DNA of 57,419 bases from an uncultured Pelagibacteraceae bacterium (GTDB lineage: Bacteria; Pseudomonadota; Alphaproteobacteria; Pelagibacterales; Pelagibacteraceae). The stretch is from the NCBI GenBank assembly GCA_902604005.1, contig CACKXH010000005.1, positions 1 through 57,419 on the forward strand, given 5' to 3'. The position numbers were made by a program, and so were the translations under genes. Numbering within the stretch: position 1 is the first letter of the stretch; each line of letters begins with the position of its first letter. Below, in pieces: positions 2-2,525 of this stretch. Under the pieces are notes generated by a model. That model had not been told where the DNA came from, did not search any database, and was given only the letters and a program-made list of their open reading frames with translations.

Positions 2-484
2 GAAACTTATATAATTAAATTTGAAAAAGATAAAGCTAACGGAATGGTACCTGTAAACAAACAATCCCACTTGAGACCATTAGCTACAATAAATCAAGTT
101 AACAAATGTATTTCAATTTTAAAAAGTAAGCCAAAAATTAAAAGATCAATGTGGAGTAGAAGAGCTCAAGAATATGAAGCTAAAATTTCATCAGGAAAAA
201 TTTATGAATTAGCTGAAGTAGTTAGAGATCTGAATAAGGGTGACGATCTAATGGTAGATCAATCTTATAGCGAAAGACAACTTTTTGAAAAAGCTTATGA
301 AAGAATTTTATCTGAATTTCAAATTATCCTCAATTTATCTTTAGATGAAACACAAAAAAAATTAGATAAAGCTTTAAAAAGAAATATTACCAATGTAGCA
401 AAAACAACACCTCAAGAAACTAAAAATCCAGAAGTAAAATTACCTGTTGATGATCAAGAAACAGTTGTAGAGGAAAACTTATAA
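2..484 (+). CDS. CarD/CdnL-family RNA-polymerase-binding regulator (5' partial)
   Basis: This is the C-terminal part of a CarD-type transcription regulator; the frame is open from base 2, so the start lies outside the window. The family binds the RNA polymerase beta subunit and stabilises open complexes at rRNA and other promoters. The visible 160 residues include the helical CarD C-terminal region, with the typical run WSRRAQEYEAKISSG and an E-L-A-E-V-V-R-D-L stretch. An acidic, probably disordered tail follows, ending VEENL. The gene ends just before a strong hairpin terminator. Family assignment is firm; the N-terminal RNAP-interacting Tudor-like domain cannot be checked here. Confidence 0.88.
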   Translation, partial: ETYIIKFEKDKANGMVPVNKQSHLRPLATINQVNKCISILKSKPKIKRSMWSRRAQEYEAKISSGKIYELAEVVRDLNKGDDLMVDQSYSERQLFEKAYERILSEFQIILNLSLDETQKKLDKALKRNITNVAKTTPQETKNPEVKLPVDDQETVVEENL

Positions 485-550: not shown

Positions 551-628
551 CTATCTTCTTCTTCTTTTCTTAGCTTTTTTCTTAGCTTTTTTCTTAGCTT
601 TCTTTGCTTTTTTTCTTCTCTTAGGCAT
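551..628 (-). CDS. 25-residue Lys/Arg/Ala-rich microprotein
   Basis: A short frame reading MPKRRKKAKKAKKKA followed by more KKKA units and ending KKRRRR. Composition is 13 Lys, 6 Arg and 4 Ala out of 25, with no acidic residue, so net charge is about +19. The start is well supported: GGGAG lies 8 nt before the ATG. A consensus-like promoter and a palindrome lie upstream and a terminator downstream. The sequence resembles histone-H1-like tails or very small basic ribosome-associated proteins, but I cannot assign a family. A nucleic-acid-binding role (nucleoid or ribosome) is inference from charge only. The KKKA part is encoded by a 12-bp tandem repeat. Confidence 0.72.
   Translation of the reverse strand: MPKRRKKAKKAKKKAKKKAKKRRRR
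569..604. repeat. 12-bp tandem repeat inside the Lys/Arg gene
   Basis: On the plus strand CTTAGCTTTTTT is repeated about three times. It encodes successive Ala-Lys-Lys-Lys units, so copy-number change would lengthen or shorten the protein in frame. Confidence 0.75.
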
Positions 629-649
629 CTTTAGCTCCCTTTTTAGTTA

Positions 650-670
650 AACGAATCAAATTGATTCGTT
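650..670. promoter_or_regulatory. 21-bp perfect palindrome in leader of the Lys/Arg gene
   Basis: AACGAATCAA-A-TTGATTCGTT: perfect 10-bp arms around one central base. It lies between the predicted -10 element (680-685) and the Shine-Dalgarno sequence of the 25-residue gene. It is either a dimeric-regulator operator or a 5' RNA hairpin. The symmetry is directly visible; the role is inference. Confidence 0.55.
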
Positions 671-679
671 ATTTACTTA

Positions 680-708
680 TTTTTATTTTTTTATATGCGT
701 TATGTCAA
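680..708 (-). promoter_or_regulatory. Sigma-70-type promoter for the Lys/Arg gene
   Basis: On the minus strand a perfect -35 TTGACA (708-703) is followed after 17 nt by TAAAAA (685-680). Transcription would start just before the 650-670 palindrome, giving a leader of about 45 nt with a good GGGAG ribosome site. Confidence 0.55.
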
Positions 709-824: not shown

Positions 825-2525
825 TTAATAAAGTTTTTCTAAATCAATTTTATATTTTTCTAAAATTCTTTTTCTTTTAAGTTTCAAAGTTGGCGTTAAC
901 ATTCCATTTTCAATTGTAAATTCATCTCTAATTAATTTAAATTTCTTAACTTTTTCTACTTGAGATAATGTTTTATTTAGATTTTCAATAAATAATTCAA
1001 TTTCTTTTTTATTTTCGTCTTTTTCACTTACAATTAATGCAACTAAATAGTTTTTTTTATCACCATAAACAAAACTTTGTTTAATTTTTTCATCAAGACA
1101 TAACAGATTTTCAATTTTTGATGGAGAAATATTATCTCCACCTAAATTTACTATTATTTCTTTTTTTCTATCAGTTATCTTTAAATTTCCATCTTTAGTA
1201 ATTTCGCCAATATCTCCAGTATGCAACCAACCATCTTTAATAATTTCCTCAGTTTCTTTTTTTTTGTTCCAATAACCAAGCATAACATTTTCTCCTCTAA
1301 CTAAAATTTCACCATCTTCAGCAATTTTTACTTCATTTGTTTTAAAGGGTGGCCCTACAGTTTCAATTTTAATTTTTCCTGGAATATTACAGCTCACAAC
1401 GGGTGAGGTTTCCGTTAATCCATACCCCTGTAAAGTAGGTAATCCTATAGCATTCAAAAATTCACCTATTTTTTGATCTAATGCACCACCTCCTGAAACG
1501 AAGGCTTTTAGTTTGCCTCCAAATTGATTTTTTATTTTTCTTCTAACTAATTTTTCACATAAAAAATTAATACATTTTTCTTTAAAATTTAAAGACTCTT
1601 TATTCAAGACTTTTGTTCCAAGAGAAATTGTATTTTCTATCAATTTTTTTTTAATTCCTTTTTGTTTAGAAAAATTGAGAGAAATTTTACTATACAAATT
1701 TTGATAAAATCTTGGCACTGCTGTCATAATAGTAGGTTTAGCTATTGACATATTAAGCAGCAGTTTTTCTAAACTCTCAGCATAGAAAACTTTTGCACCG
1801 AGAGAAATTTGAACATATTGAACAGTATGCTCGTATGAATGAGATAATGGGAGCCAAGTTAAAAAGACTGGTTCACTTTTTTTAATTATCAATTTTAAAA
1901 TTTCTAATGCACCTTCACAATTAGATAAAATACCTCCATGACTAAGCATAACACCTTTGGGATTACCAGTAGTTCCTGATGTATAAATAATGCACGCAAG
2001 ATCATTTCTTTTAATTTCATGATTATAGTCTTCAGAAATAGAAATCGTTTCTCGCTTTAAATTTTTCTCAAAAATATTTTCTATACTTTCAATTTCTTTA
2101 TTAAAATTTTCAATTGATAAAATAATAGTTTCATTTGAAATAAATTTTTCTATTTTTTTGAATTGAATATAATTTGAAACAATACAAATTTTAGGCTTAC
2201 AGTCATTTAAAATATATTCGTAATCTTTTTCTGAATAAGTTGTAAATAAAGGAACTGTTACTCCTCCGGCATTCATAATTGCTACATCTGTAATAAGCCA
2301 TTCAGGTCTATTTTCAGATAATAAAACACACCTATCTCCTCTAGATAAACTTTTTTTTAAGTATTCTGATAAAATATGAACATGATGCTCAGCTTGTCTC
2401 CAAGTTATAAAATTGTTATTATTGACTTTTAACCATTTCAAAAACGGTTTATTAGACTCTAGGTCTTTTTCTCTACATTTTTTAAAAAAAAGTTCTACTA
2501 AACTATTAGTTTTATTTATATCCAT
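825..2525 (-). CDS. Long-chain acyl-CoA synthetase (AMP-forming)
   Basis: ANL-superfamily adenylating enzyme that activates fatty acids to acyl-CoA with ATP. The P-loop YTSGTTGNPKGVMLSH is at about 181-196, GYGLTETSPVVS lies in the middle third, and GWLHTGDIG and TDRKKEIIV with the hinge follow. Length (566 aa) is slightly under the 600-residue FadD15-type enzymes, and no transmembrane segment is evident. The ATG lies only 4 nt after the encoded CCA end of the upstream tRNA-Leu, and the N-terminus (NSLVELFFKK) fits the family, so a start this close to the tRNA looks real. Substrate chain length cannot be read from sequence. Confidence 0.9.
   Translation of the reverse strand: MDINKTNSLVELFFKKCREKDLESNKPFLKWLKVNNNNFITWRQAEHHVHILSEYLKKSLSRGDRCVLLSENRPEWLITDVAIMNAGGVTVPLFTTYSEKDYEYILNDCKPKICIVSNYIQFKKIEKFISNETIILSIENFNKEIESIENIFEKNLKRETISISEDYNHEIKRNDLACIIYTSGTTGNPKGVMLSHGGILSNCEGALEILKLIIKKSEPVFLTWLPLSHSYEHTVQYVQISLGAKVFYAESLEKLLLNMSIAKPTIMTAVPRFYQNLYSKISLNFSKQKGIKKKLIENTISLGTKVLNKESLNFKEKCINFLCEKLVRRKIKNQFGGKLKAFVSGGGALDQKIGEFLNAIGLPTLQGYGLTETSPVVSCNIPGKIKIETVGPPFKTNEVKIAEDGEILVRGENVMLGYWNKKKETEEIIKDGWLHTGDIGEITKDGNLKITDRKKEIIVNLGGDNISPSKIENLLCLDEKIKQSFVYGDKKNYLVALIVSEKDENKKEIELFIENLNKTLSQVEKVKKFKLIRDEFTIENGMLTPTLKLKRKRILEKYKIDLEKLY

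Follow-up and report, generated by a model that had tools for sequence, protein, structure and literature searches.

In Chlamydia, the small RNA IhtA acts on the mRNA of hctA, which encodes the small, very basic, H1-like DNA-binding protein Hc1. As described in PMC4355289 and PMC3469542, loop 1 of IhtA covers the AUG of hctA, in a genome that has no Hfq homologue. By description, this pair resembles the arrangement considered here for Pelagibacter, in which the RNA element RF01814 has a hairpin loop complementary to the start of the mRNA for a very basic microprotein. IhtA blocks the translation of hctA (PMC4355289), whereas repression by RF01814 is our proposal from sequence comparison. RF01814 forms one hairpin, and its match of 13 nt extends over the Shine–Dalgarno sequence; IhtA, by contrast, has three stem-loops and pairs over about 7 nt around the AUG, and the Shine–Dalgarno sequence is not needed (PMC4355289). 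HctA is also longer, about 125 aa by the length of its ORF (+1 to +378; PMC4355289), than the Pelagibacter peptide, which has 20–35 aa.

Bacterial H1-like proteins such as AlgP (PMC9239181) and Hc2, which varies by lysine-rich pentamers (PMC2848022), contain Lys/Ala(/Pro)-rich repeats of variable number, as do the microproteins of Pelagibacterales. The latter, however, are far shorter, have no Pfam or NCBIfam match and, in the genomes searched, were found only in Pelagibacterales beside carD. Trans-encoded type I toxin–antitoxin pairs likewise consist of a very small protein and an antisense RNA that covers the ribosome site of its mRNA. RF01814, however, is not opposite or next to the gene, as the RNA of a type I system is, but far from it, and the product is a polycation.

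RF01814 (“rhtB sRNA”, or rhtB element) is an orphan motif reported in 2009 by Meyer et al. (PMC2704228). The section of that paper on other motifs assigns it no target and mentions neither the complementarity nor the microprotein gene, and a word search of the main text for “lysine” and “small protein” returned nothing. Literature searches for RF01814, rhtB sRNA, rhtB RNA and rhtB motif found Meyer et al. alone, and no function for the element. The SAR11 section of PMC5069720 mentions neither RF01814 nor an RNA of the microprotein gene, and among the matches listed for a SAR11 histone-like small protein none was on the subject by its title.

The window, that is, the whole stretch of DNA analysed here, is one entire contig of 57,419 bases from an assembly at 67% completeness. 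Its relevant features are the following.

2 to 484, plus strand: carD (CarD_C domain), which has lost its 5' end at the contig start; convergent neighbour of the microprotein gene and synteny anchor.
About 488 to 533, both strands: bidirectional hairpin terminator common to the microprotein gene and carD; stem and both T-runs are kept in the genus alignment.
551 to 628, minus strand: microprotein gene of 25 codons plus stop, MPKRRKKAKKAKKKAKKKAKKRRRR; the frame is kept in the genus, with in-frame length changes and a pN/pS of 0.16.
601 to 666, plus strand: weak RF01814 match (25.6 bits against a gathering score of 55), not a member of the family; the trace that led to the complementarity.
626 to 639, minus strand: GGGAGCTAAAGATG, Shine–Dalgarno sequence through start codon, which corresponds exactly to the apical loop of RF01814 and is the proposed target of the small RNA; the block GGGAGCTAAA(G/A)ATG is present in 72 of 72 genus gene copies and also, co-varying, in the RF01814 complement.
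635 to 639, minus strand: Shine–Dalgarno sequence GGGAG, from the sequence and the genus alignment.
650 to 670, minus strand: hairpin or inverted repeat of the 5' leader, AACGAATC...GATTCGTT, directly 3' of the −10 box, in 71 of 72 leaders.
680 to 708, minus strand: promoter TTGACA-N17-TAAAAA (TTGACA at 708–703, TAAAAA at 685–680); TTGACA is invariant and an A/T-rich −10 conserved in the genus alignment.
825 to 2525, minus strand: gene for an AMP-binding (acyl-CoA ligase-like) protein, located on the same strand upstream of the microprotein gene.

The preliminary description of this DNA had claimed, with no strand stated, a 25-residue frame of charge +19 with a GGGAG ribosome site, a TTGACA-N17-TAAAAA promoter and a bidirectional terminator. 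Each of these is found at the positions listed above, and the frame lies on the minus strand. The peptide, MPKRRKKAKKAKKKAKKKAKKRRRR, consists of Met, Pro, 13 Lys, 6 Arg and 4 Ala, with a side-chain charge of +19; the promoter spacing is 17, and the terminator hairpin has T-runs on both strands. The reading as a microprotein gene stands, but the leader hairpin and the exact partnership between the ribosome site and the RF01814 loop had been missed. The evidence for the promoter is its conservation. A promoter scan alone provides none, because its site count is not above chance (18 promoter-like sites in 3 kb compared with 16.3 in shuffled sequences); the match that it places at the microprotein gene has an 18-nt spacer.

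With carD as the anchor, a match was obtained in 50 of the 61 genomes of the first set, and 30 loci, the window's included, came from the window's genus (family f1). The alignment of these 30 loci, three of which end before the promoter, keeps TTGACA, the A/T-rich −10, AGGGAGCTAAAGATG, the frame and the terminator stem. A Lys/Arg/Ala-rich frame directly downstream of carD, and convergent with it, is complete in 28 of the 30. In the other two (L021, L023) the contig end falls inside the frame, as it does in L152 and L153 of a later set. When all 76 carD loci fetched from the genus are taken together, the frame is complete in 72 and ended by the contig in four. The case named in the preliminary description as refuting, a kept promoter and terminator with the frame lost, was not seen.

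The 72 complete genus frames represent 52 distinct DNA sequences and 35 peptides of 20–35 aa, with charges from +12 to +24. After the initial Met, these peptides contain K, R, A, T, P and S exclusively, and mostly Lys, Arg and Ala. Differences among the frames are concentrated at third codon positions (188, compared with 98 at second and 38 at first positions), pN/pS is 0.16 over 77 close pairs, and length changes occur by whole codons. The conserved frame, its in-frame length changes and the low pN/pS support a genuine microprotein gene that is under selection as a protein. It is plausible that standard gene finders would overlook such a frame by its length. In six loci (L024, L028, L029, L146, L147 and L154), an upstream in-frame ATG would add about 9–15 residues (MIR..RELKM...) and read through the Shine–Dalgarno sequence; we read the conserved ATG after GGGAGCTAAA(G/A), not the upstream one, as the start codon. 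In L030 (G032), carD runs through two TAG and two TAA codons and looks frameshifted, and the adjoining microprotein gene is intact.

Versions of the gene also occur outside the genus. Other genera of family f1 (g5 to g9) carry versions of 21–50 aa in 9 of 9 carD loci. In family f2, a frame of 40–91 aa occupies the same place in 18 of 20 loci, and both misses are at contig ends; these frames start with MEELK or MEDLK and continue with Lys/Ala/Pro repeats, as in the longer version MEELKVIFAKARKKAKKKAAPKKK... In the rest of the class, where carD was matched in 127 of 143 genomes, no Lys/Ala-rich frame convergent with and downstream of carD was found in the 29 loci with a recognised carD (30 fetched). 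Two candidates there are taken for probable chance frames in Arg-rich, probably GC-rich DNA: a 59-aa Arg/Pro-rich frame in L443 that passed the filter, and a frame in L462 that overlaps the carD end. A distant alphaproteobacterium of family f10 (L448) has a Lys/Ala-rich, H1-like frame, MNRSSGLFDPF...KKTKTSAKKATKSAAKAKAKPK, located 721–1188 bases before the carD end, on the carD strand and not convergent with carD. Judged from carD loci alone, the microprotein family appears to be specific to Pelagibacterales.

The comparison of genomes also brings out the 5' leader. Its hairpin is present in 71 of 72 leaders, the remaining one ending at a contig end, and pairs 3–7 are formed in 71 of 71. A related hairpin occurs at the same place in family f2; the 5' sequence CGAATCA is common to both families, and the loop and 3' arm are variable. 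The hairpin may be a second regulatory site or a stabiliser of the mRNA. Further upstream, the genus alignment is mostly variable except for a second conserved block at 781–804, between the AMP-binding gene and the promoter of the microprotein gene. This block reads GC(G)C-ATAAAC-N-(C/T)TAAC... on the gene strand and AAAGTTAGTGTTTATGCGTATAAT on the plus strand, where it is promoter-like in the promoter scan; a simple pattern finds it kept in 20 of 27 genus loci.

Regarding the nature of the peptide, Pfam and NCBIfam profiles gave no family up to an E value of 1 for the window peptide and four homologues, which says little for such short and biased sequences. No solved structure matched the microprotein, as is expected for this length and composition. 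The 35 genus peptides are Lys/Ala-rich, free of acidic residues and variable in repeat number, as H1-like proteins are; the f2 homologues have KKAAPKK repeats but also two acidic residues near the N-terminus (MEEL, MEDL). Repeats of the KKAAPKK type are typical of H1-type tails. The peptide is probably a minimal, histone-H1-tail-like polycation of Pelagibacterales and a putative DNA binder. Binding to nucleic acid is consistent with its composition and with the longer, KKAAPKK-rich version of its order-mates. We prefer DNA as the ligand since the repeats of that version are those of H1-type tails, although RNA is also possible.

The alternative that survives best concerns this ligand. Very short, highly basic peptides such as bTHX and bL37 occur in ribosomes, and the microprotein could be a ribosome- or RNA-binding component instead of an H1-like DNA binder, a role compatible with control by a small RNA. 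We regard this as unlikely, though deserving serious consideration. Against it are the order-mates' KKAAPKK repeats, which vary in number as is typical of H1-type tails, and the 20–35 aa range of the peptide within one genus. That no Pfam or NCBIfam family of any kind was matched also argues against it, with little weight for so short a peptide. An H1-like DNA binder remains the preferred reading.

The connection to RF01814 emerged from a permissive Rfam scan of the window, in which the sub-threshold match listed above is due to CAUCUUUAGCUCCC; read as its reverse complement, this is the ribosome site of the microprotein gene with the start codon. The window locus is a putative RF01814 target and not a member of RF01814. 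The exposed apical loop of the element is AUCUUUAGCUCCC, its inner stem is AGCC/GGUU, and 13 nt of the loop are antisense to the Shine–Dalgarno sequence and the first two bases of the AUG. In the 30 best-scoring RF01814 loci, the complement is in every case a hairpin with GGGAGCTAAAGATGG in the loop, the same as in the ribosome site of the microprotein gene. Apart from the gene start, the complement of this apical loop is the single conserved place where the block GGGAGCTAAA(G/A)ATG is found. Complementarity of the loop to the start region of the target was found in relatives of the window's genome. The element detected in one complete genome, G066 (1297616–1297698), overlaps 1297623–1297755, the HTCC1062 interval printed in PMC2704228, and this identifies the window's genus as Pelagibacter.

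The match is rare outside these two places. In 149 genus genomes (the window's own, G000, and others at least 85% complete), GGGAGCTAAAGATG occurs in 139 and never more than twice per genome, and a reversed control gave zero matches. When an 18-nt version was searched for in seven complete genomes, with as many as three mismatches allowed, two places had 0–1 mismatch each, seven further sites in all had three, and the reversed control matched once. A contig scan for the 18-nt version gave at least 120 stretches; among the matches listed, 58 are gene copies, 60 are RF01814 copies and two are chance. Automatic labels had given 57, 52 and 11 “other”, and the 11 were assigned by eye to eight elements, one cut gene and two chance matches. 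In complete genomes, the microprotein gene and RF01814 are far apart, for example at 410501 and 1297651 in G066. The start of carD itself was considered as a second target and rejected, since the 58 candidate starts differ at 6–11 of 18 positions; one 3-mismatch site lies near carD in G066, at position 411654.

Duplex energies separate the same sites. Pairing was scored between a 22-nt consensus, which spans the loop and inner stem, and 7,151 ATGs preceded by a Shine–Dalgarno-like stretch; these lie in 117 loci that had been chosen because they carry the motif (1.79 Mb over both strands). At the 116 sites with the motif, element copies included, the energies are −29.8 or lower, compared with −26.6 or higher (mean −9.5) at all other start-like ATGs.

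Loop and target also change together. In a paired comparison of 51 genomes, some of them picked for absence of the G form described below, gene copies were recognised from their position beside carD and the composition of the peptide, and element copies from their match to the covariance model. Thirteen of the 14 matched positions agree in 51 of 51 genomes and the remaining one in 50; G159 has one loop change without a counterpart in the target. That change aside, the sole variable base within the match is the one before the ATG, which is G in both partners in 44 genomes and A in both in 7. A whole-genome search for the A form, GGGAGCTAAAAATGG (followed by G only), matched in 8 of the 149 genomes, with two sites each in six genomes, one in G331 and one in G302. 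None of the first seven has the G form. The site in G302 is the start of an unrelated gene, in addition to two G-form copies in that genome. G238, G309 and G292 have neither form. Mapped on a CarD tree with 72 rows, the A state requires two changes, at least one of them forced, and the co-change before the ATG amounts to one or two coordinated events, not many.

The third site in G302 (contig C8, 20327–20341, L472) lies at the start of another frame, MVKKVGEHITLDIIGTTKEYD..., and was seen in this single genome. The frame looks like SpeD, which we take to be S-adenosylmethionine decarboxylase.

At codon 2 the agreement ends: the element has G there in 51 of 51 genomes, against C in 30 and G in 21 of the gene copies. 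The 30 mismatched genomes are of the MPK types, to which the window's peptide also belongs. That no more than 21 of 51 agree at codon 2 would be explained by the fold, since the match stops where the inner stem of the small RNA, AGCC/GGUU, starts.

The structure of RF01814 is well kept. Stem pairs 1–9 are formed in 69 of 69 elements, with pair 9 as A-T in 4 and T-A in 65, and pair 10 is formed in 63. Regarding the strand, an extended −10 lies upstream of the stem in 66 of 69 loci (5–8 bases before it in 65), and AATGCA or ATGCAT is found farther upstream in 65 of 69. The same promoter stretch also precedes the divergent neighbour gene, and the strand of RF01814 is for this reason argued and not proven. 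The complement is read as non-coding, since the frame there is not kept (MAKKDYL..., MAK*, MAR*, MA*). By the listed frame starts, the element is followed by an rhtB-like frame in 45 of 69 cases, a proC-like frame in 10, another gene in 2 and none within reach in 12; cruder automatic labels gave 33 rhtB-like, 24 other and 12 none. A T-run directly follows the hairpin in 25 of 69, and Meyer et al. report poly-U after the stem in about half of their examples and describe the lower stem as an inverted repeat (PMC2704228).

RF01814 scores over its gathering score of 55 in 172 of 297 genomes of the order, all 172 in the window's genus (198 genomes). The 26 genus genomes without it over the cut-off are the window's own, at 67% completeness, and 25 nearly complete ones (85–97%), of which 12 have no match at all and 13 have weak ones. 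Some lineages in which the target block is kept, such as those of G009, G093 and G174, may truly lack RF01814, although gaps in the assemblies would account for a share of about this size. The sister of the window on the CarD tree, G029 (support 90/49, weak), has an identical peptide and a readable RF01814 element. The other genera sampled keep the gene but have no RF01814 over the cut-off, and control by RF01814 would be either a Pelagibacter invention or exerted there by an RNA that has diverged beyond the model. In 12 genomes of other genera, no RF01814 copy with a matching loop was found by a pattern that misfits the g8 spacing and the g5 and f2 sites: G294, G065 and G089 each have a single match, the gene itself, G076 and G075 have unrelated starts, and 7 of the 12 have no match.

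Viral carriage was not found. Among 72 viral contigs with the 16-nt pattern, the classifier, which missed 8 of 60 RNA copies in the genome set, recognised neither the gene nor the RNA, and by eye none shows the hairpin. A contig titled Cytophagales bacterium (L270) carries a typical Pelagibacter RF01814 element and is probably mis-binned. The Pfam Hfq profile had no match in 8 of 8 Pelagibacter genomes (seven complete and the incomplete G000), with a response in 5 of 14 control genomes.

We consider it probable, judging from these sequence comparisons, that RF01814 is a trans-acting antisense RNA that represses an H1-like, probably DNA-binding microprotein, similarly to IhtA and hctA. The microprotein gene would be transcribed from its own promoter, with the adjacent leader hairpin, up to the terminator common with carD, and RF01814 would be transcribed separately as a short RNA. 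Its loop, AUCUUUAGCUCCC, would pair over the Shine–Dalgarno sequence and the first bases of the AUG, blocking ribosome binding and translation without Hfq. When the small RNA declines, the peptide would be made and coat nucleic acid, most likely DNA, thereby tightening the nucleoid or damping transcription. This logic would be that of IhtA and hctA, reached independently. We also lean towards the broader view of RF01814 as a dedicated, Hfq-independent switch that places the chromatin state of free-living, streamlined marine bacteria under translational control and that evolved independently of IhtA–HctA.

Three other roles of RF01814 have to be weighed. The common 14–18 bp could be a double-stranded DNA operator for one transcription factor, located at the start of the microprotein gene and between rhtB and its divergent neighbour. 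Complementary strands would then be the same DNA site, so that co-variation is expected here too, and the lower stem as an inverted repeat (Meyer et al., PMC2704228) would suit a protein-binding site. The shared sequence, however, is not palindromic; one of its two copies falls on a Shine–Dalgarno sequence and ATG, the other on a hairpin loop. The complete pairing of stem positions 1–9 and the pair-9 swap that preserves it also favour an RNA, although this is a weak point because a DNA inverted repeat would fit as well. We consider the operator improbable.

A cis attenuator or leader of rhtB (or proC) only, with the pairing to the microprotein gene as a by-product, appears just as improbable, if not slightly more so. 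The frequent rhtB-like and proC-like frames shortly downstream and the T-runs after the stem would be explained by such a role. The 25 nearly complete genus genomes without RF01814 slightly strengthen it and slightly weaken the reading as a trans-acting antisense RNA. Yet the loop hardly varies and corresponds to its target base by base, and the downstream genes differ between loci; cis and trans roles could both hold.

RF01814 might instead be read on the opposite strand, where its loop repeats the ribosome site with the start codon, and mimic that site, acting as a sponge or encoding a leader peptide of the neighbouring gene. The frame there, however, stops after two to four codons in a number of loci, and the upstream flank on that strand varies with context, whereas the conserved promoter lies on the RF01814 strand. 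This possibility is rather remote. Least credible of all is an untranslated frame at a locus that makes a structured RNA, since the strong nucleotide-level conservation of leader and start, which would suit it, is accompanied by third-position changes that dominate, a low pN/pS and whole-codon length changes, and an RNA-only locus was rejected on the basis of this protein-type selection on the frame.

With translational repression of the microprotein as the preferred reading, RF01814, previously an orphan for which no function was found, gains a target and a directly testable mechanism. The microprotein gene represents a gene family with a histone-tail-like product and has no Pfam or NCBIfam match. 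According to PMC2704228, about 20% of marine metagenome reads have their closest match in a Pelagibacter genome. If the proposal is correct, SAR11 would set the level of a nucleic-acid-coating peptide by a dedicated small RNA. Antisense-RNA control of an H1-like protein would then be known from two independent cases, which would point to a general logic for switching the nucleoid state in small genomes without Hfq.
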